Shown: positions 22,901-49,323 of the stretch, in pieces | Position numbering within the stretch: the first letter of the stretch is position 1 | Layout of the letters: every line of letters starts with the position of its first letter | Source: Candidatus Kapaibacterium sp. | GTDB taxonomy: Bacteria; Bacteroidota; Ignavibacteria; Kapaibacteriales; UBA2268 | Direction of reading: 5' to 3' | Length of the DNA stretch: 49,520 bases | Assembly (NCBI GenBank): GCA_026390695.1 | Contig: JAPLFL010000043.1 | Coordinates: 1-49,520 of the forward strand | The notes under the pieces: model-generated | Told to the model about the DNA's origin: nothing | What the model saw: only the letters and a program-made list of their open reading frames with translations | Databases searched by the model: none | Program-made: the position numbers and the translations under genes

Positions 22901-25900
22901 TAGTACCCTGAATATCAGGTTTTGCAGGTAAGGGATAAATTGTGATAGTCTGATAACTTGAATCTTTGCAACCAGTTGCCGAGATTGTTTCAATACATTT
23001 AACTGTCCCGCTTCCGGCACTTATCCAGGTAATATTTACTTGATTTCCTGTATTTGGACCATTAAATGTTCCGCTAATAGCAGACCATTGATATGAGTGA
23101 CCGGAAACTGCCGAGACAGTATAATTAGATGAACTATTAACACAAACCGGATTTAATCCGCTTATTGTTGGCTTGGGCAGAGGGTTAATATTAATTACTG
23201 TAAAATATGTACCTGAGCAACCGGTTATGGTACTTGTTTGTACAATAGTTAAAGTACCACTTGGACCAGCGCCCCAATTAATTATTACGGGATTTGAAGT
23301 AGAAGGACTTGAAAAAGTTCCACCAACCACAGACCATTGATAAGTTAAGGAGCCCGAATTGGAATTATAAGAATTTTGACTTTTCTCACATACATTCATA
23401 CTTCCGGATATGCCGGGAGAAGGAAGAGGATTAATTGTAATAGGTAAATATACAGTATTCGAGCATCCGGTCAAAGTATTTGTTTCAATGAGAGTAACCG
23501 TACCTGATCCCGGAATTACCCATGTAACAGAGACAGGATTATTTGTTGCACTGCCATTGATAAATCCACCGGTTACACTCCACTGATAAGAGTATGTGCC
23601 GGTATTAGCCGTATATGATAATGTAGTGTATTTACACACAACATTAGTTCCACTGATCATAGGTACCGGTAGAGGATTTATTATTGTTGAAAATGAGACG
23701 GATTTTGAGCAACCGGTAATTGTATTCGTTTCAATAAGAGTTACAGTCCCACTACCGGCTGTTCCCCAAATTATCGTAACGGGATTTGCCGTTGAGCTTC
23801 CGTTAATTATTCCTCCGATAACCAACCACTGGTAAGAATAAGTTCCGGTATTAGCTGAATAAGTATTGGATGAATTTGAACAAACATTAGTAAGTCCTGA
23901 TATAGTTGGATTTGGAAGAGGATAAACGCTTACAATGACTGTATCTCTATAAATACATCCATTATTGTCAGTAACCATTAAGGTATATGTTTGTGAGCTT
24001 AGAGGACTTGTAACCGGATTTGCCACTACGTCACTGCTTAAACCAGTTGTTGGAGTCCATTGGTACTCATAAGTGCCATTTGGCCCGCTTGCTGACGGTG
24101 CTCCACCTATTGTTGCACTGCCGCTTCCGCAAATAATAGCATCAGACCCGGCATTTGCAATGGTTGGCAAAAATTTTACAACTTCAACAGAATCTTTATA
24201 GGTACATCCGTTTGCGTCGGTTATAGTAACGTGATATTCAACCTGACTTGTTGTGGGGGTGCAAGTCGGCTGGGCAATATTATTTGCACTTAGATTTGTC
24301 GAAGGCGTCCATGTATATGAGTAAGGTGCGGTTCCTCCGCTCGCAATAGCGCCAATCTGAACACTATTTTGATAGGAACAAAGTTCATACTCATAAGTCA
24401 TTGTGGCTGATGGCGAAGAATAAACAGTGATATTAACTCCATTGTCAGAACCAGTAATAGCTGGATTGGTAGAAGACACTCTGACTCTGTACCCTGTGCC
24501 GGCGGGAGTATTCCTTGAAATTGTACCATTAACAGTCCCGGCGCTTGTTCCGGCTAAATTTCCAATATTAGTTGGAGAGGAGAAATTTCCAGTTGCATCC
24601 GATAGCTCGGCAAAAAATGTATTGCTGGAGTTATAAGTTCCAGTTATTGTAAAAGGAATTGATATAAAGGAGCCTGCGCAATAAATTAAAGGAGAAATTG
24701 TTGAGGTGTTGATAGCATTTGAAGCGATTGATGTTGAATCAAATTTCACTAAGAAGGCATCATAAGTTCCTGTACCCCCTCCGAAGCTTTCCTGATGTGC
24801 TCCACTCGAAGCAATAGCACTTGTTGAGGAAGCACTCCCGGCAATAAATACATTTCCTAACCCGTCGGTTGCAGCAGCATAACCCAGATCACCTGCACTT
24901 CCGCTGCCACCGTAATAAGTTCCCCATCTTCTTACTCCGCTACTGGTAAATTTTACTAAAAATGCGTTTGTACCTGAAACGAAATTTTCTTTATACGCTC
25001 CACTTGATGATATTGCATTTGTTGAGTATGTATAACCAACAATAAAAACATTTCCATAATTATCGGTTGCAGTTCCATAGCTCCTATCGTAACTTGATCC
25101 TCCGTAATAAGTACCCCATTGCCTTACACCATTACTATTAAACTTAACTAAAAATGCATCATCACTTCCACCAAGACTAACCTGATGAGCTCCGCTTGTA
25201 GCAATTGCTGTTGATGATGATGTAATACCTGATAGATAAACATTACCTGAACCATCTGTAGCAAGGCTCAAACCATAATCCGTATTAGAATCATTTCCTC
25301 CGTAATAAGTACCCCACTGCCTAACCCCATTATTATTAAATTTAACTAAGAATGCATCACCATAACCACCCCCATAACTGTTTTGATGAGAACCAGTTGT
25401 TGAGATAGAACTGCTTGATGTTGTTAAGCCTGTTAGATAAATATTTCCAGAAGCATCCGTTATGATACCATGACCTCTTTCATCACCGGTACCTCCATAA
25501 TAAGTGCCCCATTGTCTGACCCCACTGTTATTAAATTTTACTAAATACGCATCCGAAGCCAAACTACTGATATATTCCTGATGTGCCCCAGAGGTAGATA
25601 TAGCATCTGTTGAATTTGTCTGACCTGTTAGATAAACATTGTTACTACCATCTGTTGTAACGCAATAGCCATCTGAACCATTAGCCCCTGCATAGTAAGT
25701 GCCCCATTGTCTGACCCCAGTGCTATTGAATTTTACTAAAAAGGCATTAAAACTCGTTCCATTATAATTTTCCTGATGAGCTCCACTGGTTGATATTCCT
25801 ATAGAAGATAATGTACTCCCAGCCATATAAACATTCCCTGATCCGTCAATTGCAACCCCATATCCATAATCAGCACCCTCTCCACCATAATATGTCCCCC

Positions 25901-26963
25901 ACTGCCTAACTCCATTACTATTGAATTTAACAAGAAATGCATCATCCCAGGCATAAAGACTTACCTGGTGCGCACCGGTTGTGGAGATTGCACTTGTTGA
26001 ACCAGCCTGACCTGTGAGATAAACATTACCAGAGCCATCGACCGCTACTCCTTTTCCCGCATCATAATTAGACCCTCCATAATAAGTCCCCCATAGCCTG
26101 CTTGGCGGATCTATTATTAATGGGAATTCATTGTTATAGTTTTTGGCTAAAAATGAAATTGAATTATCAGAATTTAATACGAATTTACTATTTATTGATA
26201 GTGAGTTTGGCGGAATTTTGCGTGAATTTGTATATGTTGAAAATTCTAAAGGTTGGTAACTTATCGGGGCTTTCTGTTCTAAAAAACCAAAAGGAGTGCT
26301 GATTTTCAAGTTCCCATTCTCTGTTATTTGTATTTCATCAGCTCCTTCGAATGTAAAATTAATTTGAACCGGATCGGCACCGGGTTTTATAACAAAGTCA
26401 TATTGAAAATTATGGTCAGAATTTGAATATATAACAAAATCTATATTCGGATATATATTTTCCATCATTACTGTTCTGTATTTTCGGACAACTGTCAATC
26501 CATCGGGGCACTGAGCAAGATAATAATTATCATAATCATCAGTAATTTCTTTTTTGATTATTTTCGGATTCGGATTTGCATTATTAAATTTCATATCAAC
26601 TCGGTAAATATCCAGAACTATGCTATCATCCTCATTCTTTGAGAATTTATCAGGTAAATGTGTTGCTGGCTCTGTCTGAAATGAATTATTCTTATTTAGT
26701 TTATTAGATTTTATAAATGCAAAGCTGAGACTGTTTTTATTTATATAAATATTCCCAAATTCAACTTGAGCCACAAGGCTAACTTCATTGTTCACTTTGC
26801 CGAACTGATCGGCGATTTGCCCTTTGTTTTCTATGAAAGCTTCTTTCATCTGGCCGTTAAATGCAAATTTTGATTGCATTGATAATTGCGGCGGCTGGGC
26901 GGCATAAATAGAAGAAGCTATAAGAAGTGCCAGCAGGCTGATGTTAAGTAAAATTCTATTCAT
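19938..26963 (-). CDS. Giant T9SS-exported SBBP/PKD-like repeat surface protein
   Basis: This is a 2341-residue predicted adhesin-like protein. The order is: signal peptide (ILLNISLLALLIASSIYA); an N-terminal domain with the AFIENKGQ motif that typically precedes SBBP repeats; seven SBBP beta-propeller repeats at about residues 289-750, each with WGTYYGG, GNVYLTG and DAFLVKFN; two Ig-like/SprB-type units; about a dozen PKD-like units (YSYQW, GSGTVTLIET, TGC) to about residue 1830; a GNQWYYQDT unit; HYDIN-type Ig domains near 1920-2090; a cohesin-like domain (PGEHFKIPLYMDSS); and a T9SS sorting domain (KPNPGKDEIEIEY, DISNGTYFLFL, KKIEIIK). It is a single-gene unit. Calcium or glycan binding and surface attachment are inferred from the domains. 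The near-identical PKD-like repeats at about 23400-23900 suggest recent unit duplication. Confidence 0.88.
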   Translation of the reverse strand: MNRILLNISLLALLIASSIYAAQPPQLSMQSKFAFNGQMKEAFIENKGQIADQFGKVNNEVSLVAQVEFGNIYINKNSLSFAFIKSNKLNKNNSFQTEPATHLPDKFSKNEDDSIVLDIYRVDMKFNNANPNPKIIKKEITDDYDNYYLAQCPDGLTVVRKYRTVMMENIYPNIDFVIYSNSDHNFQYDFVIKPGADPVQINFTFEGADEIQITENGNLKISTPFGFLEQKAPISYQPLEFSTYTNSRKIPPNSLSINSKFVLNSDNSISFLAKNYNNEFPLIIDPPSRLWGTYYGGSNYDAGKGVAVDGSGNVYLTGQAGSTSAISTTGAHQVSLYAWDDAFLVKFNSNGVRQWGTYYGGEGADYGYGVAIDGSGNVYMAGSTLSSIGISTSGAHQENYNGTSFNAFLVKFNSTGVRQWGTYYAGANGSDGYCVTTDGSNNVYLTGQTNSTDAISTSGAHQEYISSLASDAYLVKFNNSGVRQWGTYYGGTGDERGHGIITDASGNIYLTGLTTSSSSISTTGSHQNSYGGGYGDAFLVKFNNNGVRQWGTYYGGNDSNTDYGLSLATDGSGNVYLSGITSSSTAIATSGAHQVSLGGSDDAFLVKFNSNGVRQWGTYYGGSSYDRSYGTATDNYGNVFIVGYTYSTNAISSSGAYKENFVSGTNAFLVKFTSSGVRRWGTYYGGSGSAGDLGYAAATDGLGNVFIAGSASSTSAIASSGAHQESFGGGTGTYDAFLVKFDSTSIASNAINTSTISPLIYCAGSFISIPFTITGTYNSSNTFFAELSDATGNFSSPTNIGNLAGTSAGTVNGTISRNTPAGTGYRVRVSSTNPAITGSDNGVNITVYSSPSATMTYEYELCSYQNSVQIGAIASGGTAPYSYTWTPSTNLSANNIAQPTCTPTTSQVEYHVTITDANGCTYKDSVEVVKFLPTIANAGSDAIICGSGSATIGGAPSASGPNGTYEYQWTPTTGLSSDVVANPVTSPLSSQTYTLMVTDNNGCIYRDTVIVSVYPLPNPTISGLTNVCSNSSNTYSANTGTYSYQWLVIGGIINGSSTANPVTIIWGTAGSGTVTLIETNTITGCSKSVSFSTIINPLPVPMISGTNVVCKYTTLSYTANTGTYSYQWSVTGGFINGSATNNPVSVTWVIPGSGTVTLIETNTLTGCSNTVYLPITINPLPSPGISGSMNVCEKSQNSYNSNSGSLTYQWSVVGGTFSSPSTSNPVIINWGAGPSGTLTIVQTSTITGCSGTYFTVININPLPKPTISGLNPVCVNSSSNYTVSAVSGHSYQWSAISGTFNGPNTGNQVNITWISAGSGTVKCIETISATGCKDSSYQTITIYPLPAKPDIQGTISVCVGNEYIYSATDIAGTTLAWSSIAGTIIGTNTGPIIRIRWDAVGTGFVKATRTNTTSNCNDSNSLTVLVHPLPNKSITGPAAVQKGSSQQYSGPSDASTWLWKVSSGGTITSSNNGQVVTIQWGNTGKEKITLYVTNAFGCLDSISLDVTISNSNIVITGNTNVCENSISVFSTPATPNRTNDWHVLGGIVQGVNTADIVTVKWGAAGTGNLSLIQTIQANQLHDTASIIVIINPLPKPKINGLNSAVNLTVQNYYATAATNNSYKWRADGGIIQGADNGTTVNILWGNTASGVVHLIQTSPEGCTDSIALDVTLNNKPGLSITGATNICEGLSADYKTITPNGATSSWSVSSIGTITGTNIGDQVTIKWINAGAGKITLIQEDKSKGFRDSLVKDVIVNPMPIVSINNLPDICLDAGKIDLAGGLPTGGRYSGLAVTANKFDPSVAGQGSHTITYTYTSTDGCTDSSWSSIIVHPLPAKPNITEIDSVLYSDAPSGNQWYYQDTLLVGATGTSYKPTKEGIYDVEVTDAFGCKSRADAPHFYPSGGRNPVIVAKTTIVCEDIICYKVEKDTLLIKNFGANPLTISSILINGNNKQEFALEKDYSGLTIDSMKNAKIIINFLPQSVGLKTANLIINSNATNNSKFNVDMTGSKDSSGFILTNNSVDFNNLNANTPATLEIGMTNTGSLPLSFNLPIKINNDFSITNISPNPLLPNSSATINIRYSGGPSGTKLTTSYNLTEPVCNNFAMISITATVGSVPVKGFAAFHIGNTEASPGEHFKIPLYMDSSSNTKLVQGYQFDLSFNKTLLAPINNSPAGIVSDSQRTITFVSDLNPLSPNLFKNYDFIAALGNDTSTVLSISNAKALGDSNLRVTIINGNFKLKGLCSQGGLRLLEIENSAKLMITKPNPGKDEIEIEYFIREDGISKLSLLDLAGKEIKIIYNKSMKIGAGTEKININDISNGTYFLFLQTQSTVYTKKIEIIK

Positions 26964-28966: not shown

Positions 28967-29260
28967 ATGAAAAAGTTCCTGCAAATCATTTCGACAATTG
29001 CTTGTGTCGTTTCTCTTCTTTCATGCAATAAATCTGATAGCAGCCCGAATTCTGCTTCTGATGAGATCATACCTGATAATTCCAAAGGGATCATCAGCCT
29101 TCAGGCAGCCCCAAGTATCTCAAGTATCTCGCCGACATCAGCCGAAATTGGTGATGGAACATGTTTTCTTGTTCCCCCTTTTTCAAAGGGGGTTAGGGGG
29201 TTTCTCCAGAGCTTACAGAGCTTACTCCAAAGTTATAATATTTCCTTACAATTCTACTAA
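28967..29260 (+). pseudogene. Truncated TIG/IPT-domain lipoprotein, interrupted by family C repeat
   Basis: The ATG at 28967 follows AAAGGT and begins a lipoprotein signal (KKFLQIISTIACVVSLLSC, then NKSDSS). The mature part reads APSISSISPTSAEIGDG, the typical opening of an IPT/TIG immunoglobulin-like domain. The domain breaks off exactly where the family C hairpin begins (29174-29192): from there the frame reads PPFSKGVRGFLQ, a translation of the repeat, and stops at 29260. The remainder of the protein is missing and a different T9SS gene starts at 29280. The remnant could still produce a short lipoprotein. Confidence 0.7.
29174..29192. repeat. Family C hairpin repeat, copy 2
   Basis: CCCCCTTT-TTC-AAAGGGGG, identical to the copy at 97-115, followed here by TTAGGGGG. 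It sits at the breakpoint of the TIG lipoprotein remnant. Confidence 0.75.
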
Positions 29261-29279: not shown

Positions 29280-30638
29280 ATGAAACATTTTTACATTATC
29301 CTCATCCTTTCTCTGTCAATTATGACAGCTTATTCTTTTGATAGAAATAAGCCGAAAGAAAACAAAATCTGTGCGAAGATCGATTCAAGCCGTTTCGAGA
29401 GTGTTGTGGAATATTCAACGGGTTCTTCTAAGAGTAAATATTCATTTACTTATGATACTATTGGCAATATTAGTTATATGTTATATCAATTATATCAGGC
29501 AGGGACATGGGTAAATTCTTACCAGCTTACCAATATATATGACTCAAAAAATAATATGATGGTATCATTCTCTCAAAATTGGTATAATAATGACTGGATT
29601 AATGCCGGACGTGGCACATATACTTATGATTCTAATGGAAAGAATCTTACCTATATTCTCGAAACATGGTCGAATAATCAATGGACTACCACAGTTCGTC
29701 AAACATCAACTTATGATGTTAGAGGTAATTTGCTGACATATTTAAGGGGAGATGGGACTACCGATACCTATCGGGAGACATATACTTATGATTCTAAGGA
29801 TCAAAATACCGGTTATTTATATGAATTATGGCAGGCAGGACAATGGGTTAATTCGGAAAGATATACTTACCCTTGGGATGCGAAAGGAAATAATACTGGA
29901 TATATATATGAATATTGGCAGAATGGTCAGTGGCTTTATTATAGTCGTGTTACAACTACTTTTGATTCCACTTCAAAGGATATTGCGGGCTTGCGCGAGA
30001 CATGGCAGAGTGGTCAATGGGGAAATGCAGGTCGTTACACCAATACTTATGATACCAAAGGGAATTTGATGAATGAAGTATCTCAGTTGTGGCAAACCGG
30101 TCAGTGGGTAAATTATAGAAATTGGGATTACACGTATAATTCTACTGGTAAGGAGCTTGGTTACTTGTGGAAGGAATGGAAAAACAATACTTGGGTTAAT
30201 TATGAACGTAATGCGACAACTTATACAGCTAAGGATTGGGTATTAATTAATACAAATGAGAGGTGGCAAAACGGTCAGTGGACTAATTACAACAATAATT
30301 TTGCTTTCAAAGATACGAAGGGGATTGATTTCACGTTTAACGGATATAGAATAGAGGTAAATTATCCCGGAATGGTTGATGTTGAGGAAGAAATAAATAG
30401 TATTTCAAATAGTTTGAATATTTCGCCGAATCCTGCAACTGATATTATAGATATTTCCATTGGAATTCAGCAAGCAGAATCCTTGCTATTGGATTATAAT
30501 ATTTATAATTCGTTAGGAGAAATACAGGAGACGATACATCCGAAGACTTCAAGTCATCGGATGAATTTATCAAATTATCCGGCAGGAATTTATTTTGTGA
30601 GAAATGGAAATCAAATTGGGAAATTTATTAAGAGATAA
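29280..30638 (+). CDS. T9SS-exported protein of 29-residue W..GQW repeats
   Basis: This is a 452-residue predicted secreted protein. The ATG at 29280 is chosen because GGAG lies at 29270-29273 and it starts a signal peptide (KHFYIILILSLSIMTAYS); the frame is open further upstream but only through repeat DNA. Residues ~60-355 consist of about nine degenerate 29-residue repeats with consensus Q.GQWVN..R.T.TYD.KGN....YE.W, one of which lacks the tryptophan block. The last ~80 residues are a T9SS sorting domain (ISPNPATDIIDISIG, LSNYPAGIYFVRNG, KFIKR). The fold of the repeats resembles short beta-hairpin repeats of Bacteroidota surface proteins; the function is unknown. A strong hairpin follows at 30650. 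Confidence 0.85.
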   Translation: MKHFYIILILSLSIMTAYSFDRNKPKENKICAKIDSSRFESVVEYSTGSSKSKYSFTYDTIGNISYMLYQLYQAGTWVNSYQLTNIYDSKNNMMVSFSQNWYNNDWINAGRGTYTYDSNGKNLTYILETWSNNQWTTTVRQTSTYDVRGNLLTYLRGDGTTDTYRETYTYDSKDQNTGYLYELWQAGQWVNSERYTYPWDAKGNNTGYIYEYWQNGQWLYYSRVTTTFDSTSKDIAGLRETWQSGQWGNAGRYTNTYDTKGNLMNEVSQLWQTGQWVNYRNWDYTYNSTGKELGYLWKEWKNNTWVNYERNATTYTAKDWVLINTNERWQNGQWTNYNNNFAFKDTKGIDFTFNGYRIEVNYPGMVDVEEEINSISNSLNISPNPATDIIDISIGIQQAESLLLDYNIYNSLGEIQETIHPKTSSHRMNLSNYPAGIYFVRNGNQIGKFIKR

Positions 30639-36020: not shown

Positions 36021-36974
36021 ATGAATAGTAAACCTCCAACTCGCAATTACAATATGACTGATTCTGAATTAGTCATGTTGGGTTATAATTTGTGCCAAAA
36101 TATTACTCGCGATCAAACGCAGTTTACTCCCCGTGGCGTTACCGCTACGCTTGTTACAGCTCTACGTACATTAGTTGAGGCTTTCGAGATATTTCCGCCT
36201 GATTCATATTATCAAGCCGATGTATCGATTGCCGTTGAGGATAAGGATAATGCTCGTGTGGCTCTGGACATTTTAGTTCGGGATGTTGTGCAATGTGCTA
36301 TGATTAAGTGGGGCGTGGATTCGCCGAAGTACAGGAAGTTTGGGACGATTAATATGGGACGTTTTTCTGATAAAGAATATCTTACGGCTTGTCGGCAAGT
36401 GGTTACGACGGCGACCGGTTATCTTTCGGACTTGACCGCTGTTGGTTTGACGACTGGTATGATTACTGCGGTAACAACCGGTGCTGATGGATTTCTTGAT
36501 ATTCTTGATAATTTGAACGAGGCTATCACTGTGCGTGATGTAAAGAAGGGTGAGCGTATTGAATATGGCAATGAGATTTATTCATATATTAGTCAGTATT
36601 GCATGATTGGGAAAGTGATTTGGGACGATGTGGATGAGACGAAGTATAATGACTATGTGATTTATCCCGCGACATCTTCGGGCTTATCCAAACCTGATAA
36701 TGTGATTGCTAATTGGGCAATGGGAGATACAGTTGTCCATTTGAACTGGGATAATGTGACCGGGGCAGCGACCTATGATGTTTATCACTCGGCAGTTAAT
36801 TTTGGTTTGCCATCTGATGCTTATACATTATTAAGTAATTATCCGAATCCTCCTCAGGGTGTATCTTTTACAGTGAACAAAAGAAATTATTATAAGATTA
36901 AAGCAAAAAATGGTTCTGTAGTTAGTGATTTTAGTGATGAGGCGTGGACGGAGGTTGTGGACGGGACAGTTTAG
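36021..36974 (+). CDS. Protein with C-terminal fibronectin type III domain
   Basis: This is a 317-residue protein without a signal peptide. The ATG at 36021 is preferred to an in-frame TTG at 36006. The N-terminal ~210 residues (from NYNMTDSELVMLGYNLCQN) look mostly helical and match no family I recognise. The C-terminal ~95 residues resemble a fibronectin type III domain (VVHLNWDNVTGAATYDVYHS, NYYKIKAKNGSVVSDFSDEA). Third-position G/C use appears higher than in neighbouring genes, so it may have been acquired. A 231-bp palindromic element (37077-37307) lies downstream. Its function is unknown. Confidence 0.65.
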   Translation: MNSKPPTRNYNMTDSELVMLGYNLCQNITRDQTQFTPRGVTATLVTALRTLVEAFEIFPPDSYYQADVSIAVEDKDNARVALDILVRDVVQCAMIKWGVDSPKYRKFGTINMGRFSDKEYLTACRQVVTTATGYLSDLTAVGLTTGMITAVTTGADGFLDILDNLNEAITVRDVKKGERIEYGNEIYSYISQYCMIGKVIWDDVDETKYNDYVIYPATSSGLSKPDNVIANWAMGDTVVHLNWDNVTGAATYDVYHSAVNFGLPSDAYTLLSNYPNPPQGVSFTVNKRNYYKIKAKNGSVVSDFSDEAWTEVVDGTV

Positions 36975-37076
36975 TTAATGTATAATGTAGAATTAATAAT
37001 GTAAAATGCAGAAGAGAAGAACTATATTTAGGATTTTCATTCTGCATTTTTCATTTTGCATTCTACATTTTATATT

Positions 37077-37307
37077 AAGAGACACACCCCCCAACCCCCT
37101 CTTATTAGAGGGGGAGTTTTGGAACGCTCCATTTGGTTTTATTCTCCATCTAATAAGAGGGGGCTCTATTCTATCATGGTTTATTCCCCCTCTAATAAGA
37201 GGTGGTTCTATTTTATCATGGTTTATTCCCCCTCTAATAAGAGGGGGTTCTATTTTATCATGGTTTATTCCCCCTCTAATAAGAGGGGGTTAGGGGGTGT
37301 GTCTCTT
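37077..37307. mobile_element. Family A MITE-like element with 42-bp palindromic tandem units
   Basis: The element occupies most of the gap 36975-37329. Its ends are near-perfect inverted repeats of about 38 bp: AAGAGACACACCCCC at 37077 and GGGGGTGTGTCTCTT ending at 37307, each continuing into the palindrome CCCCCTCTAATAAGAGGGGG. Inside are three consecutive 42-bp units (37141-37182, 37183-37224, 37225-37266) and a partial fourth, each one palindrome plus a TCTATTTTATCATGGTTT linker. It encodes no protein. The 42-bp period makes both strands open for long stretches, but those frames are repeat translations. Confidence 0.8.
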
Positions 37308-37329
37308 CAGGTATTTAGGAATGAACTTT

Positions 37330-39669
37330 TTACTCAACCAAAGCCTCCACTGCCTCGCTTATATTCGATTCCCCGCCGTCTTTTGTGAAAACTTTTACGG
37401 CATAACTATTAATTCCCTTCTTTAGAGAGGAATCCGTGAACGTCAAACTGTCCGAGCGCTGATATTCTTTAAGATTTCCTTTGCTATCTTTTTTATAAAT
37501 CACAAAAAATGTATTTTTATTGAATGATTTATATTCCCAATTCAGCACTATATTTGCTTTTTCCTTTGCTATTTTGAGATTTTGCACGGCGGGACGAACT
37601 CCATTATCGTAAGGCTTGCCAAATACTGCATTTGCATAATGGGAAAACAAACCCGAATCATCTTTTGCGCGGATAGAATAATAGTAAGTTGTGCCCTGTT
37701 TAACATTTGTATCGATATAATTATTTTGATTTATATTTATTTTAGTAATTGAATCCCAAGGAGAATCAGGTGACAATTTTCGATATAAAATATGCATCAC
37801 TACATCTTCGCTCTCGCTAAGTGCGAAGGATAATTCGACTTCCTTTTCGCGTACGAGCAGGCCCGTGAATACCGGGGTTGTGGGCGGTATGGTATCGGGA
37901 CGCTTTATTTTCAAATATTCCGAGTATTCTGAAGGATTGAAGTGGAAATCTAATGCCTGAACCTTGTAATATATGTAAGGGGTAAGGGAATTTAGAGTTA
38001 CGGTATCTATGAATATGGTTTGAACTTGCTGATTTGAGGAATCGAGATCGACAAATCCTTCATAAATAACGGAGAATTCGTGTTCAGGGCCATTAGCTTT
38101 AAATAATCTATATCCCATTAGATCTTTTTCTTTATTTTTTTCAATAATAATCGTGACAATTCCCAAAGAATCAATCTTGCCGGAAATAAAAGCAGGCTTA
38201 GATGGAGGAATACTATCGATTAATGTCACCATGGAGGTATTAGATATACTATAGTTGAGGGCAGTATCAAGTGCCTGAATTATATAATAGTTTTCGGCAT
38301 CCTTATCGAAAGATTTGTCGATATATTCCCTTGCATCGGTAGGGAGCAACTGGTCATTGATTCGGATAAACGGGCCTGTGTATTTGTTAGATCGAGCAAC
38401 GAGAAAGCCCTTTAAATCTCCTTCAATGGGCGGCGTCAAATTCCACTTCAAATATACTGCGCCTAAAGCATTAATTGGCAAATCGAGATTGGGCTTTTGA
38501 GGTGGGGTTCGGTCTTTTGGCATAACTTCAATCTCACCGACGAGAATTTGGTCGGCAAAAGCAGTATTTCCATATACCCGATAATAATATTTTGTGTAAT
38601 TTGTGAGGCTGTCGTTCTTAAAACCAGTTCGCTCAAAGCTTTCAAAACCTACGGGCTTGGATTTTAAAATTGGGGACTTGGTTAATCGAGAATATGGACC
38701 ATCCTTTGAAAGCGCGCGGTCGATATTATAGGAATTGAAGTCACGAACGGAATTCCAGGACAGCACAACTTCTTTATCGCCATCAATGAAATAGATTTCT
38801 TCTTTGTATTTTTCAGGTTTGAATGCCTCAGCTTTTACTTTTACATAAATATCTTTATCTTTGTAAGTTTTGGAATGCTCTACGAGAGACATTTTATAAA
38901 CGTAGGTCGTGCCATTTATAATATTTTTATCGACCGCACGAAGTCCGAGAGCTGTTGCTGCCGTTGAGGATTTATTAGCCATGACGAGGGAGAAGCCAAA
39001 TTTAGTTTCGAGATTATTTCTTGCCTCGGTGAGAGAGCCCAATCCATTTTGGAATGCGCTAAATGGCTGCGGGACAGAATCATTTTCCTGATCGGCAATT
39101 CCAGCCATGAGTCCTACCATGTAAACTGACTCTGCTTCGGGGTCTTGTTCGGTATGCGCTTGGAAATATGAAATAAATTGCTGCTCATTCCATGCTTTGA
39201 AAGGCGAGCCTGCGATTTCTTCAAACTTTAATTTAGAATAATCACTATCATTTACGTTTGTGAGTATGGCTCTTTCGATTTTGTAGCCCGAACGAGTGGC
39301 AATTTCCCAGACCGCTGGCTTTCCGACAGCCCAGCGGAGAATAATTGAATCCTGATAGCCTCGTGCGATTATTACTGATTTGATATTCAGAGATTTATTT
39401 AATTCTTCCTGCGAGGGTTGGGCTGAAGAGATTCCGTAGATGAGGAAGAAACAAATAAAATATTGAAATATCTTTGAACTTATATTGCATTTAACATTAT
39501 TATGTGGACTAAAAACAGCTTTCATTTGGAAACACACCCCCCGACCCCCTCTTATTAGAGGGGGAGTAAGAGAATTATTGATAAAGGGGTTTTGTTCCCC
39601 CTCTAAAAAGAGGGGGTTAGGGGGTGTGTTTATTGTTATCATGGTATTTATTTTCATTATATTTTTCAT
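37330..39669 (-). CDS. Secreted multi-FN3 protein, third gene of the surface operon
   Basis: The frame is 779 residues from the operon-spaced ATG at 39669, 17 bases after the preceding gene. A family A element (39528-39629) is translated as residues ~14-46 (TPPNPLFLEGE ... TPPLIRGGRG). The true signal peptide (IFQYFICFFLIYGISSAQ) follows an internal ATG at 39525 (residue 49). Translation for export probably starts there. The mature protein begins with IIARGYQDSIILRWAVGKP, then carries several fibronectin type III-like units with PP(K/T)-P and YYYRV/YYYSIRAKD strands. There is no T9SS tail. It resembles FN3 proteins that accompany TANFOR-type proteins in Bacteroidota; that link is from memory and tentative. 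Confidence 0.75.
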   Translation of the reverse strand: MKNIMKINTMITINTPPNPLFLEGEQNPFINNSLTPPLIRGGRGVCFQMKAVFSPHNNVKCNISSKIFQYFICFFLIYGISSAQPSQEELNKSLNIKSVIIARGYQDSIILRWAVGKPAVWEIATRSGYKIERAILTNVNDSDYSKLKFEEIAGSPFKAWNEQQFISYFQAHTEQDPEAESVYMVGLMAGIADQENDSVPQPFSAFQNGLGSLTEARNNLETKFGFSLVMANKSSTAATALGLRAVDKNIINGTTYVYKMSLVEHSKTYKDKDIYVKVKAEAFKPEKYKEEIYFIDGDKEVVLSWNSVRDFNSYNIDRALSKDGPYSRLTKSPILKSKPVGFESFERTGFKNDSLTNYTKYYYRVYGNTAFADQILVGEIEVMPKDRTPPQKPNLDLPINALGAVYLKWNLTPPIEGDLKGFLVARSNKYTGPFIRINDQLLPTDAREYIDKSFDKDAENYYIIQALDTALNYSISNTSMVTLIDSIPPSKPAFISGKIDSLGIVTIIIEKNKEKDLMGYRLFKANGPEHEFSVIYEGFVDLDSSNQQVQTIFIDTVTLNSLTPYIYYKVQALDFHFNPSEYSEYLKIKRPDTIPPTTPVFTGLLVREKEVELSFALSESEDVVMHILYRKLSPDSPWDSITKININQNNYIDTNVKQGTTYYYSIRAKDDSGLFSHYANAVFGKPYDNGVRPAVQNLKIAKEKANIVLNWEYKSFNKNTFFVIYKKDSKGNLKEYQRSDSLTFTDSSLKKGINSYAVKVFTKDGGESNISEAVEALVE
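39528..39629. mobile_element. Family A element inside the 5' end of the FN3 gene
   Basis: Inverted ends AAACACACCCCCC (39530) and GGGGGTTAGGGGGTGTGTTT (to 39628) each abut a palindrome, CTCTTATTAGAG or CTCTAAAAAGAG. The two palindromes start 52 bases apart. The element separates the operon-spaced ATG (39669) from the signal-peptide ATG (39525), and its CCAAA end directly touches the latter. Confidence 0.75.
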
Positions 39670-39686
39670 TTTCTATATTATTTAAT

Positions 39687-42600
39687 TTATTTCTGCTTTG
39701 TATTATCATTAACATTCGCATTTGCCACTTGCATTGCTCCAGTACGGAAATCTTTGTATTTTACTTGAATTACGGGTTGATTTGAATGATTTGTAGCTAT
39801 ATTCCAATTACCAGCTACCAATTCAAAAAGAACAGCCTGCACTGTAAATCTATAATTCATATTTCTTTCCAAATGATTAACTACGCTTGGAGGAGTAGGA
39901 GGTAAATTTCCATAACCGGGATCAACCGGTGGAGGTGTAGTATTATTATCATTATCAGTGCCATTAGCGACTTTAATTCCGCCGGTAGAAATTACTGCAT
40001 TTGTAGCCGGTAATTTATTAGCGTAGGAATTTGACGGCAAAGTACCGGAATTACTTGTTTTTTTCAAGTTAGTTATTAATGTTGCTCCAGTTGCGGGATT
40101 ATTATTAATTACCGGAGAAAAGATATTTGTAAATTCATATTGACCAAGTGCATTTACACCTTTTTCAAGCATATTAACAAGTTGTGGAGAGCCGTTAACA
40201 TATTTTTCGAGTTTGACCGAATATATGGCTTGAAAAGTTCTTGTTTTAACTGTTCCGTCTGCCTGACGTTCGGCCACATCAAAAGACTCACTGGGAGTAA
40301 AACCATAAGTGGCTTTCATAGTAGTTGCAGTATCAATATTATTACCAACTGGAAGGACTGTTTTAATTAATTGAGCTTGTTGTTCATCGGCAGCATATTC
40401 CTGAGCTCCGGTCGAAGGAACTCCAACAGGAACGTCCGCACAAGCATTTCCAAACTTAAAAGTTCCATGATAAGTACCTGTAACAATATCATCTATAGCG
40501 CTGTAATGGATATCGCAACCGCCTTCTAAGTACGTCGGGTGAGGAAATCCACCTGATGCCCAGACGCCAAACCCGAATGAACCAACATTAAAATCATGAC
40601 CTGAATGATAATTATAACAACAATATGCCAAACAAGTTGAGTTTGTGCATTGTGATTCGCCTGAATGATGTAATCTCCCCTTTGCTGACAGATGCCCTAC
40701 AACCGAGAAACCTCCATAAAGAGCTACATTTCCTTTAGCATACCAGCCGCTCATTCCTGTAATACAGCCTGGAGAATATTCCATTAGACTTAGGTTAAGT
40801 TCACCACCGATAGAGTATGTCCAATTTATACTAAATCTTCCTATTATTCCAATTCCATCAGCCCCGTGATCATTAATTCCAACTCCGAAAGCAAATCCTT
40901 TGCCTGCTTTAGTTTCTGAATTAACAACTTTAGAACCATCCAATGAACCAAGCGAACCGCCATTTGTGGCCGCAGCATACCCTGCAATAGTTTGTGGCAT
41001 AAAGTTTGGTGGAGGAATAATATCATTTCCAAACATCGCATAACTTGTTAATGGAATGCCAGCAACTTTAACAGTATTTGGATGAGTAGGTGTTCCAGCT
41101 ATAAAGTGCCATAAATTATTTTTACTGTCAATCATAAACTCCAGAGTAAGTGGAACAGGTGTCGTTATCGGGTCTTTATTTATTCCAACAGCAGCCTGAA
41201 GTAAGAATTTTTTTAAAGTGAAATCGTAATTTGCAGCTATGGCGCCATTCATGAACGCCTTATTATGTTCAGTAAAGCCAGCACCCACCCAAAATGCTCC
41301 GTCAAAGCGCAGAAAAGACATTCCACCATTATTGAAGAACTCACCACTTATCCCAGCTTCTCCGTTGAAAGTCTGTTCTTTAGGTGTAGTGGCAATTATT
41401 GCTTTTATTTTAAATCCGAAGGCTACATTATCATTCGGAGTAAATACAGCTCCTGACGTAGTGGACATATTGCTGTTGTTGGAAGGAGGAGGAAGATTTA
41501 CAGCGTTGTATGTTGCTGTCATATGGTGATAAGCACCAGCACCGAAACCTCTGAAAGCAAGTCCTGCCATAAATACAATTCCGGGTGGAGGCAGGATCAC
41601 TAATGCCTCAACTTTCCAGTATCTGTATCGAACATTGGCGCTATTGGTCTTATTGCCAAAAAATGCACCTACAGCCACATATAAATTTACTGAATTGAAT
41701 TTTGCGCTGATGTCGCCTTTAAAGCCATCTCCATATGTCGGATCATTATTAAAAAAGGCAACAGATCCTTCAATCTTTGCTGCCGACATGTTTGAATGAA
41801 TAGATATGGAATCTAAAGTAGTATTTATATATTTAGGATAGAATTTTTGCCCATGAGCAGCAGTACCGTCTTCAATGGCAAGGATCACACCCAATTTGGT
41901 CATTCCTCCGATAATATCTGTAAGATTAAATATTACATCAAAATTCAACTTCCCACGTAGCATTTCACCAGGGGCAGAAGTAAGAGTTGAGAATCCGATA
42001 TTCTTTATTGTCACCGGAAAATTAGCCATAAACTTTTGAGCACTTGCAAAAGCCCATGTGCCGGCATTGAATTTAAAACCTGTACCAGCAGAATTATAAT
42101 TAAATCCTAAATTTTGAAACTTTAATCCAATATTTACATTTTTAACAGGGCCTAACTGAATATTATTCCAACCGAATGACCCGTTCAAAATCATATCGAA
42201 TTTTTTTGTAGTTTTATCAACAAAAGCAGTAATATTTGATGTTTGAGCCAGATCCAATGTGCCCTTGAACAAATGAGCATAAATCGGTCCGGTCGGAACG
42301 ATGGATAATTGAAAGCTCTTGTTAACATTATTAAATAGGGCAGTATATTTTAAAGGATGCTGAACTGAGTCCTTTTTAACTGCAGGTAGTCCGATTTTAC
42401 CTTTAATGTATGCTTCGGTGAGAGAGCTGGCAACCATCTTTACTACAATTGTATCAATACTTGCCTCAAGATCAGCCACCTTACCGCTTGGAAACTGAAT
42501 CACATTCGTGGCTTTGGCACTGAAAGTTAACCCCATTTTATCAATTATCATATTTGATAGGCTTATCGTAGGTGCAGTGTTGTTCATTGTTTTCCAGGTT

Positions 42601-45059
42601 TCTGGCATTACCATTGTCAGATTTTTCATAAAGAAGCCATGGAATAAAACTGATTTATCACCGGCATAATTTGGAGGAAAAACTATAGATGCCGGATTTG
42701 CATCATCTGATAAATCGTAAGAAAGACTATCCGCTAAAATGGTCATTCCGTTAGTTCCAACAATTTCCGATTTCTTCATCCAACCGGTCAGAATCATACT
42801 GTACCAATCGCTGCCAATGCCAACTAATGTTGCTGTTGCTTGATTATTAGAATCAGGCGATGGAATAAGCCAATCACGAGTGAATTTTGCTTCGAGTTCA
42901 ACACCAAACTCTGAAAAACCTGTTTCATCCCACTCTACATAGCAACCAGAATGATTATCATCAGGTTTTTTCATTGATAAAACAATATTGGCATTTGTAT
43001 TCCCTATAGTAACGTCTTCTAATAACTCAATTCTTGCAGGTGGCAATTGAATTTGAGCTGGATGAAATCTGATTCCCATAGCTCTGAATCCGACTAATTG
43101 CGGATCTCCCCAGCTTGCAGGTGTTGTTTTAGCCGCTACCATAACAAACTGAGATGTATCTCGTGTGAAAGCCATTTCTGTTATCGCAAACTGGCTGCTG
43201 TCAGGAAAATTAAGACCTAATGGAAGTTTTACTGGATTAGTGTATGCTGTCAATCCATTATAAGGAATGGTCTGATTAAATTTATTTTTAACCCAATCAA
43301 CAACACTTGAAGCCATGTTATTTGTGAAAGCAAAATGTGCTCCAATTTCCAATGCCCAATCCTTTGGATAAACAGGAGCCGTATTGTCTATCTGACCGGA
43401 GATTTGACCTTTTAATAATCTTTTTGTGGTATCGACTGTTATTGAATCAAATTCCACATCCACACGAGCTTTCAGCCAATTGATATAACATGTTCCTTTG
43501 CCGGAATATTTATTATTAGTCATTGTGATTGAATTTGCAATAATTGTAAATTCACCGTTTTGACCTGCTTTTAATGTATCATTCGGATTCAAACTTCCCT
43601 GTGCAATTGTCGCACTGGGTGGAGTTACACCTATATTTGATTTTCCAAGTTTTCCACTTTTATTTGGATCGGTTAAACTTTTTTTAGAACCCAAATTTGT
43701 GGTAGTATCTGTTATAAGAACGGATTTTTTGGAAATTTTATTAACGGTATCAGAATCAACTGATTTTCCTTTTTTAAACAAAATGACATCAGGAGTTTTC
43801 AATGTAAACTTTCTTGCTTCGCTCACTCCGCTGTTTCTGAATTGGATTTTCTTAGATGGATCAATGGCAATCACTCGCCATGCGTAGGTTTTGCCAACTA
43901 TCAGCGGAGGATCATTGGGAAGGGAGAGGTAGCTTGTAGTGCTTAATGTTTTCTCGTAAAAGAAGCGTGAAGTTGAGTTCATCACTGCATCCGGTGAGCC
44001 GTTTGGCAGCAGCATTTCGGTCATCTGGAGTTTGAACTGAGTTCCCATCGGGGCTTGCGGAGAGCCTATCCAAGAGAATAGAATATTTGTTGAAAGTAGA
44101 GTATCTTCATTATTCGGCTGAATGAGTATAGGAGCTTCGGGATAGGCAATATCCACAGGAGCACAGCCCGAAGGACTGGTAGGGGAAAGTGGTAAACCAG
44201 AAGTATAATCATAAGCACGGAAACAAAAGTTGTAATTGCCTTCAGGCAGCATACCTGTCTGCATGAGAGTAGTTTTACTAAATCCCACAACATCGAAATT
44301 CTTAGTATCCGAATAATTTTTCATATTGGAATTATTAAGAATAGCAATTTGATTCGGATTTAAAATTAAAGGCTGTGGCGGTATAAACACCGCTTTGGAA
44401 CTGACTTTTACGCCATTATCACCCTCGATAGTATATCCGATTTTTATTTTCTGCTGTTTATTAGTATTATTTTTAACAATAATCGAAAGTTTATTCAATC
44501 CACCGAAATAATCAGCTATATAAGGAGAATATGGCATTGTTATTTGAGTTGTAATGTCGATGCTGCTGGTCTGGGCGAAGAGAAAGGTGGAAAAGAATAG
44601 GAAGAGGAGAAGAATCCCCCATAGTCCCCCTTTTAAAAAGGGGGAAACTTTGGACGTCATATTTAATTCCGAGTTTCCTATCGAAAAGAACCTATAGCTT
44701 TTAATTAGCAGCCCCCCCAACCCCCTCTTATTAGAGGTGGAGTTGAAACGAAGAGTGTTATATGACGCTGTCTCAAAAGTAGAAGATTTGCTAATATTGT
44801 CATTCCCGCGCATGCGGGAATCCCCTTCCTGTAGCACATTTGGGGGATTCCTGCATTCGCTGGAATGACAGAAACGAAACTTTTGAGACAACCTCGAGTT
44901 TGGGAATTGATCAGCTTCCGTCTCTAATAAGAGGGAGTTGGTATGCCTCCAATCCTGTTCCCCCTCTAATAAGAGGGGGTTTGGGGGTGTGTTTCCAAAA
45001 GTTGGATTAGTGGCTAATTGTTTTCTATCAGCTTTTATTTGTTCAAATATATTCTTCAT
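39687..45059 (-). CDS. Giant secreted protein of the surface operon (possible TANFOR-type)
   Basis: The frame is 1790 residues from the operon-spaced ATG at 45059. Residues ~23-140 are translations of nested repeats (families A, B and C). The hydrophobic signal core (ILLLFLFFSTFLFAQ) appears only at about residue 148, preceded by an internal ATG at 44660 (residue 134). Part of the signal's N-region (VSPFLKGGLWG) is itself repeat-derived. The mature N-terminus (ITMPYSPYIADYFGGLNKLSIIV) resembles the TANFOR domain of Bacteroidota, tentatively. Most of the remainder is beta-rich with no known domain, and a C-terminal Pro-rich linker and FN3-like segment end it. No T9SS tail is visible. It lies between an outer-membrane barrel and an FN3 protein and may form a surface assembly with them. 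Confidence 0.75.
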   Translation of the reverse strand: MKNIFEQIKADRKQLATNPTFGNTPPNPLLLEGEQDWRHTNSLLLETEADQFPNSRLSQKFRFCHSSECRNPPNVLQEGDSRMRGNDNISKSSTFETASYNTLRFNSTSNKRGLGGLLIKSYRFFSIGNSELNMTSKVSPFLKGGLWGILLLFLFFSTFLFAQTSSIDITTQITMPYSPYIADYFGGLNKLSIIVKNNTNKQQKIKIGYTIEGDNGVKVSSKAVFIPPQPLILNPNQIAILNNSNMKNYSDTKNFDVVGFSKTTLMQTGMLPEGNYNFCFRAYDYTSGLPLSPTSPSGCAPVDIAYPEAPILIQPNNEDTLLSTNILFSWIGSPQAPMGTQFKLQMTEMLLPNGSPDAVMNSTSRFFYEKTLSTTSYLSLPNDPPLIVGKTYAWRVIAIDPSKKIQFRNSGVSEARKFTLKTPDVILFKKGKSVDSDTVNKISKKSVLITDTTTNLGSKKSLTDPNKSGKLGKSNIGVTPPSATIAQGSLNPNDTLKAGQNGEFTIIANSITMTNNKYSGKGTCYINWLKARVDVEFDSITVDTTKRLLKGQISGQIDNTAPVYPKDWALEIGAHFAFTNNMASSVVDWVKNKFNQTIPYNGLTAYTNPVKLPLGLNFPDSSQFAITEMAFTRDTSQFVMVAAKTTPASWGDPQLVGFRAMGIRFHPAQIQLPPARIELLEDVTIGNTNANIVLSMKKPDDNHSGCYVEWDETGFSEFGVELEAKFTRDWLIPSPDSNNQATATLVGIGSDWYSMILTGWMKKSEIVGTNGMTILADSLSYDLSDDANPASIVFPPNYAGDKSVLFHGFFMKNLTMVMPETWKTMNNTAPTISLSNMIIDKMGLTFSAKATNVIQFPSGKVADLEASIDTIVVKMVASSLTEAYIKGKIGLPAVKKDSVQHPLKYTALFNNVNKSFQLSIVPTGPIYAHLFKGTLDLAQTSNITAFVDKTTKKFDMILNGSFGWNNIQLGPVKNVNIGLKFQNLGFNYNSAGTGFKFNAGTWAFASAQKFMANFPVTIKNIGFSTLTSAPGEMLRGKLNFDVIFNLTDIIGGMTKLGVILAIEDGTAAHGQKFYPKYINTTLDSISIHSNMSAAKIEGSVAFFNNDPTYGDGFKGDISAKFNSVNLYVAVGAFFGNKTNSANVRYRYWKVEALVILPPPGIVFMAGLAFRGFGAGAYHHMTATYNAVNLPPPSNNSNMSTTSGAVFTPNDNVAFGFKIKAIIATTPKEQTFNGEAGISGEFFNNGGMSFLRFDGAFWVGAGFTEHNKAFMNGAIAANYDFTLKKFLLQAAVGINKDPITTPVPLTLEFMIDSKNNLWHFIAGTPTHPNTVKVAGIPLTSYAMFGNDIIPPPNFMPQTIAGYAAATNGGSLGSLDGSKVVNSETKAGKGFAFGVGINDHGADGIGIIGRFSINWTYSIGGELNLSLMEYSPGCITGMSGWYAKGNVALYGGFSVVGHLSAKGRLHHSGESQCTNSTCLAYCCYNYHSGHDFNVGSFGFGVWASGGFPHPTYLEGGCDIHYSAIDDIVTGTYHGTFKFGNACADVPVGVPSTGAQEYAADEQQAQLIKTVLPVGNNIDTATTMKATYGFTPSESFDVAERQADGTVKTRTFQAIYSVKLEKYVNGSPQLVNMLEKGVNALGQYEFTNIFSPVINNNPATGATLITNLKKTSNSGTLPSNSYANKLPATNAVISTGGIKVANGTDNDNNTTPPPVDPGYGNLPPTPPSVVNHLERNMNYRFTVQAVLFELVAGNWNIATNHSNQPVIQVKYKDFRTGAMQVANANVNDNTKQK
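44626..44644. repeat. Family C hairpin repeat, copy 3
   Basis: CCCCCTTTT-A-AAAAGGGGG is a variant of the hairpins at 97 and 29174. It lies inside the coding frame of the 1790-residue protein and encodes the SPFLKGG part of its signal peptide N-region. Confidence 0.7.
44709..44998. mobile_element. Family A element carrying a nested family B element
   Basis: The left end (CAGCCCCCCCAACCCCCTC, 44711) and right end (GGGGGTTTGGGGGTGTGTTT, to 44994) are inverted family A termini with CTCTTATTAGAG/CTCTAATAAGAG palindromes. Near the right end two palindrome starts are exactly 42 bases apart (44918 and 44960), the same unit length as in the element at 37077. A family B element (44767-44893) is inserted in the middle. 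The whole composite is read through by the 1790-residue frame. Confidence 0.7.
44767..44893. mobile_element. Family B MITE-like element, nested copy
   Basis: Inverted termini TGTCTCAAAAGT (44769-44780) and ACTTTTGAGACA (44879-44890) enclose the family core (GCGGGAATCCCCTTCC, GGGGGATTCCTGCATTCGC, GGAATGACAG). Size and structure match the complete copy at 49193-49323. It is inserted within a family A element. Confidence 0.75.
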
Positions 45060-45071
45060 TTTTCTTTCTTT

Positions 45072-46730
45072 TTAAAAATTATAAATATAACCTACATTCG
45101 ACCTGTACTCGGTGAATGCTGGTGATAAAGCCTGGCTACTGCCACTATTAATTATATTAATATTTGCATTAACCGAATGATGTTTGCTAATCTGATAGCT
45201 TACCTGAATATTTGCTGAGGCAGTTCCACCGTTGCTCACAGAGTTTATTGTCTGTATCTGGTATGAAACTGAAGCTCCTATATTAAATTGTTCTATCGTT
45301 TTCCCAATTTGTGCGCTTGGTCCAAGAAATTCCATTTTATTGCCGCTCGTAAGTGACTGAATATAGTTAATACTGACACCAAAATTCAATCCTGAAGATA
45401 ATAAATTCCCTTGATATGCTAAATTTGCCATGTAATTATCACTTTGCGAAGTGGCGGCTGTACGGGAATTCAAATCGGCAAGAGTCTGATAACCGGCTAT
45501 CAGCATAATTAAATTCATTAGTGAATCAGTTTGAAATGAATATCTGGCTGAACCATTGAAACTACTGTTTACACGTGCAATTTTTAAACTATCAATCAAA
45601 GGATTTAGACCTTTATATTGAGTGATACCATAACTTGAATATTTTAAATCAATTCCGTATTCAGGCTTATTAAATGAAATACCAGCAGATGAAATTAACC
45701 TCTGTGATTGCTGGGCTTTTGTATTCATCAAATTATCTCTTTGAAATCCGAAACTGCCTGTCAGACTAAGTGAACGATCAAAGAGATTTAGGTTCGGTGC
45801 AATTAATATATTCTCGACATCACTCTCCATAAAGTAATTCCCCATTGATTTATAGTCTGGGTCTATACGCTTATAGGCTAATTTAATTCCGAATAAACTT
45901 GATCTCCAGCCAATAGATGTTTGGATTGCAGTCGAAAATTGTGATGAAGTTTTATATTGAAAAATACTTTTTATCGGCGAAACAAAAACTGGCAAACTGG
46001 AATCCGCAATAATTTCTGATCTTATATCATTAGTGTAGAAGCTGCTTGCAGCATCCAATTCGAAGAAAATAGAAGAAAATGGATTAAATTTGCCGGATAT
46101 CGCTAACACCATATTTTCTTCAGGTTTTATTAGAGTTTGCCCGGCTTTCAACGAAGTAGAATCGTCACTGGCTTTCAAAACAATCAAATCAAAGTAATTT
46201 GTTTGCGAACCGAAACCTAACTTTGCTGCAAACCCGCTTCTGGCATAGCTTGGTGGAGTATACAAACTTAAAGAATCAGCACCTGAATTTGCTTTATTAA
46301 AACGCCCGTACATTGCGGAAATCCTGAATAATCCCGGCATCAGGTCTATTCCTCCACCTAAAAAAGTATGTCCTGCTAAAGAAAAGGGGGAATAAGACAA
46401 GCTCCTCCAGCCTCCATGCAAAGTAATCCATTTGTATGCCGGACTAACTCCAATCTGGTTGGATGGCTGTGTGTAAGCTGATTGTTGTTCGCTCACAATC
46501 ATCGAAAATGGAAAATTAATTCCGAATATTTTGGCATTTACAGCTCCTGACAGAGAATATCGGAAATCTCTGTCGCGGGGACTTATACCGCTTACTTGGT
46601 AAGAAGCCGCATTTAGTCCCACTGATCCGTCAATGTTTATCGCACTCTCTGTTAAAGATTGATCAGGATCAGCAGAATATAAATTACAGAAGCCATAAGT
46701 TAGAATAAATAGTAAGATTAGTCGATTCAT
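45072..46730 (-). CDS. Outer-membrane beta-barrel protein, first gene of the surface operon
   Basis: This is a 552-residue predicted outer-membrane protein with signal peptide RLILLFILTYGFCNLYSA. The mature part consists of alternating amphipathic strands (SLSGAVNAKIFGINFPFSM, QFNIGASVSYQIQTI) and ends with the aromatic C-terminus NVGYIYNF typical of barrel insertion. No TonB-box or plug domain is visible. It precedes the giant secreted protein by only 12 bases, so the three genes 46730-37330 form an operon. It might anchor or export the two large proteins; this is inferred from context. Confidence 0.75.
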   Translation of the reverse strand: MNRLILLFILTYGFCNLYSADPDQSLTESAINIDGSVGLNAASYQVSGISPRDRDFRYSLSGAVNAKIFGINFPFSMIVSEQQSAYTQPSNQIGVSPAYKWITLHGGWRSLSYSPFSLAGHTFLGGGIDLMPGLFRISAMYGRFNKANSGADSLSLYTPPSYARSGFAAKLGFGSQTNYFDLIVLKASDDSTSLKAGQTLIKPEENMVLAISGKFNPFSSIFFELDAASSFYTNDIRSEIIADSSLPVFVSPIKSIFQYKTSSQFSTAIQTSIGWRSSLFGIKLAYKRIDPDYKSMGNYFMESDVENILIAPNLNLFDRSLSLTGSFGFQRDNLMNTKAQQSQRLISSAGISFNKPEYGIDLKYSSYGITQYKGLNPLIDSLKIARVNSSFNGSARYSFQTDSLMNLIMLIAGYQTLADLNSRTAATSQSDNYMANLAYQGNLLSSGLNFGVSINYIQSLTSGNKMEFLGPSAQIGKTIEQFNIGASVSYQIQTINSVSNGGTASANIQVSYQISKHHSVNANINIINSGSSQALSPAFTEYRSNVGYIYNF

Positions 46731-49192: not shown

Positions 49193-49323
49193 GAGGCTGT
49201 CTCAAAAGCCACATATTTAACAAAAATGTAATCCCTGCGTATGCAGGAATCTCCTTCCAGTGCCACTTTAGGGGATTCCTGCATACGCAGGAATGACAGA
49301 AATGAGGCTTTTGAGACAGCCTC
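49193..49323. mobile_element. Family B MITE-like element, complete copy
   Basis: Perfect 18-bp inverted termini GAGGCTGTCTCAAAAGCC (49193-49210) and GGCTTTTGAGACAGCCTC (49306-49323) bound a 131-bp element. Inside, GCAGGAATC and GGATTCCTGC form a hairpin, with a second GCAGGAATGACAG arm. It encodes no protein. Related copies lie at 44767-44893 (nested) and 27190-27243 (core only). A non-autonomous element moved by an unlinked transposase is the likely nature. Confidence 0.85.

Follow-up and report, generated by a model that had tools for sequence, protein, structure and literature searches.

Two adjacent genes in the window (the whole 49,520-nt stretch of DNA analysed, which comes from a relative of the Ignavibacteria) each carry an ATG at operon spacing, then repeats in an open frame, and then a second ATG that leads into a signal peptide. 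The questions raised are why these frames are open and at which of the two ATGs translation begins.

Architecture of the operon and its repeat elements

Genes 0, 1, and 2 lie head to tail on the minus strand. Gene 0 (45072-46730, 552 aa, with a signal peptide) lies 5' of gene 1 in the operon (gene 1: 39687-45059, 1790 aa counted from ATG 45059), which is followed by gene 2 (37330-39669, 779 aa counted from ATG 39669); Pfam and NCBIfam scans returned no match for any of the three. The stop codon of gene 0 is 12 nt from ATG 45059, and that of gene 1 is 17 nt from ATG 39669. An earlier note on this DNA had placed two operon-spaced MKNI starts at these positions, followed by inserts of 399 nt (45059 to 44660) and 144 nt (39669 to 39525) with no in-frame stop, and both coordinates and lengths were confirmed; 133 open codons separate the outer and inner ATGs of gene 1, and 48 those of gene 2. 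The signal peptides were called by eye (MTSKVSPFLKGGLWGILLLFLFFSTFLFAQ, 44571-44660, for gene 1 and the region MKAVFSPHNNVKCNISSKIFQYFICFFLIYGISSAQ, 39418-39525, for gene 2; both minus strand).

Insert 1 contains an A element (44713-44999, minus strand) whose arms, 44959-44999 and 44713-44741, are interrupted by a nested 132-bp MITE-like unit (44764-44895, minus strand); an additional degenerate core lies at 44917-44941. The unit has C ends and B palindromes inside. Its ends (GAGGTTGTCTCAAAAGT / ACTTTTGAGACAGCGTC, read from the sequence) are inverted, and no clear target site duplication was seen by eye. The nesting of A, B, and C repeats described earlier holds, except that B and C are not separate elements but parts of this one unit. 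Family B (TGTCATTCC..) has what we take to be a CGTC-like appearance. Past the insert, an A'-type half-element (44616-44646, minus strand; core CCCCCTTTTTAAAAGGGGG at 44626-44644) codes for SPFLKGGLWGI, the n-region of the gene 1 signal peptide. The "true" signal peptide reported at 44660 is thus a signal, but one made partly of element (MTSKVSPFLKGGLWGI/LLLFLFFSTFLFAQ), and because the half-element forms its n-region, an element would be translated even if gene 1 started at 44660. No in-frame ATG, GTG, or TTG occurs downstream of 44660 within the first 160 codons.

The sole element of insert 2 is a 102-bp A element (39530-39631, minus strand) with 36-nt arms, 92% complementary and 30 nt apart; it consists of two inverted palindromic cores (CCCCCTCT..AGAGGGGG, then a second G-run) flanking a spacer. 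The 110-nt stretch that includes it folds into a hairpin of -64.6 kcal/mol, and one arm ends 5 nt ahead of ATG 39525. A third A element, to which no strand was assigned, lies 3' of gene 2 (37077-37307) and is enlarged by 42-bp units; one plus-strand frame is open from end to end of this array. Elsewhere in the window, the MITE-like unit has a second, diverged copy at 49193-49298, which carries B palindromes and the GAGGCTGTCTCAAAAG end, and tandem protein repeats of about 195 bp occupy 24789-26100 within a 2341-aa ORF (19938-26963, minus strand). At gathering scores, Rfam gave no match in the region 36900-45200, and phage records gave a single 37-base match and nothing else.

Orthologues lack the inserts

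Orthologues of genes 1 and 2 are adjacent in the relatives G009 and G024, in the same order as in the window. The check proposed earlier, a search for orthologues without the elements, succeeded for both genes in both relatives: the hydrophobic core follows directly on a short, element-free N-terminus. Judged against these orthologues, the window's genome thus shows the derived state, with the elements inserted inside the genes, and the long form is not ancestral.

Elements recur in frame in other genes and genomes

A third operon case was found in the window's genome, in an OMP-like gene on contig C25 (L233:1958-2896). Its start overlaps the stop codon before it (ATGA) and precedes two half-elements and then the signal. 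Among 14 orthologue frames examined, 10 had no such extension, two had other extensions, and two were not the gene. One of the two with other extensions (L267, G014:C65) carries other repeat peptides, of the HSERSEESRN type, in an open frame ahead of the signal; a site of this kind is thus occupied there by another repeat family. In the PorP/SprF protein of a Saprospiraceae MAG (L173; PF11751, TIGR03519), an element lies within the signal peptide, between MKKFQYAFFE and KKLFTFIFLLALAWQGQAQ, and no ATG, GTG, or TTG follows it. Provided that the proteins are made from ATG, GTG, or TTG starts, the sequence leaves translation of an element as the only option for the signal peptide of gene 1 and for this PorP.

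Insertion also extends to enzymes of the window's genome. The leucyl-tRNA synthetase carries an in-frame insert of 61 residues made of four half-elements, missing in 10 of 10 relatives searched; those of G009 and G017 have other, element-free inserts elsewhere in the protein. An adenine deaminase (L225, C78:15603-17666) has two separate in-frame arrays of different palindromes, one of the IPACAGMT type near the N-terminus and one of the A' type in mid-protein; 11 of 12 genomes matched this protein, all without the mid-protein array. Half-elements further occur in frame in T9SS C-terminal sorting domains (L113, L117, L118, L121, L123, L125, and L151), with the peptides SPSIKRGxGGV or SPSNKRGLGGV; in all seven domains scanned (from G009 and HGW-Ignavibacteriae-1), PF18962 covers the element. 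The six cases from G009 agree in position and context; domain duplication may account for their spread. Element signatures were also present in Saprospiraceae, Aequorivita, Membranihabitans, Desulfobulbaceae, and a Rhodocyclaceae MAG (59 stretches). Among the matches listed by a protein-level search for translated elements, most lay in short open frames and a few in long ones (G051:C54, G014:C65, G014:C67); motif inspection of the long-frame match in G051 found nothing.

Openness of the frames

Dinucleotide shuffling left insert 1 open in the fixed frame in 4 of 5000 shuffles and insert 2 in 197 of 5000, so that the openness of both exceeds chance. The other two forward frames contain 8 and 13 stops in insert 1, and 10 and 2 in insert 2. 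The earlier note had suggested that the elements evolved stop-free frames, and this proposal failed: other copies had on average 3.02 of 6 frames open per half-element, against 3.20 of 6 in dinucleotide shuffles (n = 123, all cores outside six hand-excluded genes, a few of them in other, mostly doubtful ORFs). Half-element 44955-45000 has 4 open frames out of 6, the complete gene 2 element 2 out of 6. What stood was the description itself, of elements inside genes, between operon-spaced starts and signal peptides, with the frame kept. Since no evolved openness was found, frame keeping is explained by the survival of tolerable insertions, and selection against frame-breaking insertions, with the signal n-region as a tolerant site, is the simplest account. 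Distances between neighbouring elements outside the six genes were multiples of 3 in 30 of 55 cases; because one 42/84-bp unit dominates them, they allow no conclusion on the 42-bp unit as a codon-sized adaptation.

A scan of 175 signal-like frames returned 32 with an element up to 450 nt upstream or just inside, a set that includes some membrane proteins and duplicates (some G009 stretches equal named records, with at least one pair, L129/L189) and from which the filter missed the open cases of gene 2 and L233. The frame was closed over the nearest element in 27 of the 32; the five open ones were gene 1, a window gene starting at 29280, L142, L212, and the PorP case. L142 and L212 have no ATG upstream of the element. 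In element-centred stretches, which the surveys covered, 19 of 119 element clusters lay wholly within called ORFs (some of them spurious, and the set contains duplicates), and 29 of 140 A/A' cores in the sampled stretches of the window's genome lay within called ORFs of at least 100 aa, some doubtful.

Which start codon

Start contexts were scored with a matrix trained on 110-111 called starts, and RNA opening energy was computed with 150 nt on each side and referred to 111 called starts that include those of the tested genes. ATG 45059 (45057-45059, minus strand) reached the 92nd percentile for context at an opening cost of 4.7 kcal/mol, and the internal ATG 44660 (44658-44660, minus strand) the 30th percentile at 10.0 kcal/mol (94th percentile of cost). 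Gene 1 thus probably starts at ATG 45059; the inner start is possible, but the upstream one scores better. In gene 2, ATG 39669 (39667-39669, minus strand) is at the 54th percentile and costs 0.9 kcal/mol, whereas ATG 39525 (39523-39525, minus strand), set against the hairpin, is at the 1st percentile and costs 29.4 kcal/mol, compared with a maximum of 13.5 among the 111 called starts. Given this hairpin and context, gene 2, if expressed, very probably starts upstream. The two candidate starts of L233 score alike (22nd and 19th percentile for context).

The scores can also return a negative answer. A look-alike Por_Secre_tail gene in the window (29280-30638, plus strand) has an open upstream frame with an element at 29174-29192; its ATGs upstream of the element, 29061 and 29154, are at the 1st percentile, and ATG 29280 is at the 55th. 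We therefore rejected it as a further true case, and its open upstream frame is probably chance openness. By both measures, context and predicted RNA opening, the outer start is the better candidate in genes 1 and 2, clearly so in gene 2. Peptides specific to such translation would be MKNIFEQIKADRK.. and TPPNPLLLEGEQDWR.. for genes 1 and 2. The gene 1 signal core would then lie about 149 residues from the N-terminus, an unusual position. In the passages available on T. cruzi GP82, a signal relocated inside the protein failed, although export did occur for the version that begins at the most distant upstream Met. Annotated starts of genes like these may err in either direction.

DUF559 nuclease genes flanked by palindromes

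The window's genome has four DUF559 (PF04480) genes (C24:40098, C30:321, C92:8728, and C25:12455; L308-L311), all bracketed by palindromes: those around three of the genes are of A/A' types, and the pair around the fourth differs in sequence but has the same architecture. The domain is present in 34 of 54 genomes of the family. We tested 66 places, which represent about 67 of 92 DUF559 rows, mainly the better-scoring ones (two rows are one gene); L354 and L355 among them agree in frame and in domain placement and may be copies. Forty-seven places were short genes (frames below 220 aa): 30 of these had at least 18 nt common to both flanks, 39 a C-run palindrome in at least one flank, and 23 in both. 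Same-family controls (58 genes, deduplicated, 700-nt flanks) gave no flank repeats (Fisher p 2e-14) and one palindrome (p 1e-19), and a wider control of 151 genes, partly from other families of the order and with slightly different flanks, gave one and three. Counting against the link, 8 of the 47 short genes had no palindrome and 17 no 18-nt flank repeat. The E-h-D-G-x-x-H motif was found at 59 of the 66 places, and a solved relative, 3hrl, is named 'Endonuclease-Like Protein'.

Among the 19 long-frame cases, 3 had common flanks and 11 a palindrome. A long ORF encloses DUF559 in frame, together with arrays to one side of it or both, in L346, L347, L350, L354, L356, and L359; five of these six ORFs contain methylase or specificity domains (Pfam). 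One such domain is present as two stretches in L354, L356, and L359, and the profile positions suggest that DUF559 splits it there. L360 and L364 are fusions in long frames that do not resemble insertions. No Hint/splicing (intein) domain was found at E 1e-6 in eight long ORFs scanned. Across genomes, the correlation between DUF559 and palindrome similarity was weak (r 0.14; 47 units; reached by 1 of 300 permutations), and among the 59 stretches DUF559 adjoins elements in L140, L142, and L168. In the papers searched, DUF559 is mentioned by 14, and by two together with 'palindromic', in no case in the title or abstract.

Discussion

The reading we prefer, at a probability of about 0.72, is that palindromic mobile elements were inserted in the n-region codons of two operon genes, that those keeping the frame survived, and that the outer ATGs are still used and the elements translated. 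At the level of sequence, insertion relative to the orthologues, the open frames, and recurrence in other genes are established. The course of events may be pictured as follows. Short GC-rich palindromic elements, presumed mobile, would insert into n-region codons of genes 1 and 2, one of which additionally acquires a nested second mobile unit and a further half-element, and frame-keeping insertions would survive. Ribosomes would start at the operon-coupled ATGs 45059 and 39669 and read through the elements, giving precursors with about 149 (gene 1) and 69 (gene 2) residues ahead of the hydrophobic core. We infer that these long precursors are exported and cleaved; the added peptide would lie on the cytosolic side and be removed along with the signal peptide.

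If translation instead started only at the internal ATGs 44660 and 39525, the elements would be 5' leader and the open frames accidental or recent relics. Convincing signal peptides directly after both internal ATGs, the acceptable context of 44660 (30th percentile), and the accidental openness at gene 29280 speak for this, yet we regard it as unlikely: only 4 and 197 of 5000 shuffles stay open, the far ends of both frames are well-placed operon ATGs, 39525 combines a 1st-percentile context with 29.4 kcal/mol to open, and 27 of 32 comparable frames are broken. The earlier note had also raised leaky or dual starts, with an exported form from the inner ATG and a cytosolic one from the outer, their ratio tuned by the hairpin. 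The idea is possible for gene 1, where both starts are usable (92nd and 30th percentile), and open frames would persist if both forms were needed; for gene 2 it is very unlikely, as the inner start, hairpin-blocked and at the 1st percentile, looks unusable. With the insert missing from the orthologues and the long form thus not ancestral, dual initiation as an account of the locus seems quite improbable.

An assembly or binning artefact, in which repeats joined unrelated sequence, has in its favour that the genome is a draft of 129 contigs with several element copies near contig starts. The shared order of genes 1 and 2 in G009 and G024, the frames open across the inserts, and similar cases in other genes and genomes make it highly improbable.

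The preferred reading, in-frame insertion with use of the outer starts, leaves room for a wider one. By correlation, DUF559 is a candidate mobiliser of the palindromes. More tentatively, and with more doubt than belief, the palindromes might be the short non-autonomous form of an undescribed mobile unit whose full form is the palindrome-bracketed DUF559 gene, both forms inserting in frame without splicing. Signal peptides, enzyme loops, and sorting domains would then host the short forms and DNA-methylase proteins the full ones, in the manner of an intein that is never removed. The DUF559 link offers a testable answer to what moves such repeats.

Several known systems resemble parts of this picture. 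In enterobacteria, the available passages on RU-2/YPAL in YPO1552 read the fusion as forming a new exported protein (Delihas 2007, PMC2759123), whereas here, according to the orthologues, an existing signal peptide was split. The autotransporter ESPR, described in the part of the source available as a signal extension of about 25 residues (PMC2805444), likewise places extra residues ahead of an ordinary signal; the extension here is longer, element-made, and missing in the G009 and G024 orthologues rather than shared. GTAG/CGTC REPs and RAYT REPtrons, as far as the passages of PMC3733652 go, also form dimers and arrays, some of them intragenic, and include a repeat-flanked gene. Here DUF559 takes the place of the tyrosine transposase as the flanked gene, and GTAG or CGTC occurs within 8 nt of only 1 of 45 A cores (window and L091-L110, overlap included). 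A Y1 transposase as partner of the elements found no support: none of the four Y1_Tnp genes in the window's genome has A/A' cores on both sides, and one (C52:70213, with an internal TGA) has A/A' cores in one flank and B in the opposite flank. The literature passages retrieved contained neither the splitting of orthologue-supported signal peptides nor an association with DUF559.

The closest parallel is with the palindromic elements of Rickettsia (Ogata 2000, 2002), described in the passages available as short, both intergenic and in frame in conserved genes (PMC2229807, PMC2759123); palindromic elements inside protein genes are described there above all from Rickettsia and Wolbachia (PMC2229807). 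Like these, the present elements are dispersed many-copy palindromes, mostly outside genes, and where they are in frame they are tolerated and missing in orthologues, as in leucyl-tRNA synthetase and adenine deaminase. They differ in belonging to another lineage and in their arrays, nested units, signal-peptide and sorting-domain cases, and DUF559 flanking; we liken them as a kind and claim no family membership. What keeps the frames open is tolerance as with the Rickettsia elements, and not an evolved openness. In-gene insertion of that kind is found here in a different lineage, down to leucyl-tRNA synthetase, and the insertions show where proteins are tolerant; the n-region of signal peptides and the sorting domains of T9SS proteins are among these sites.
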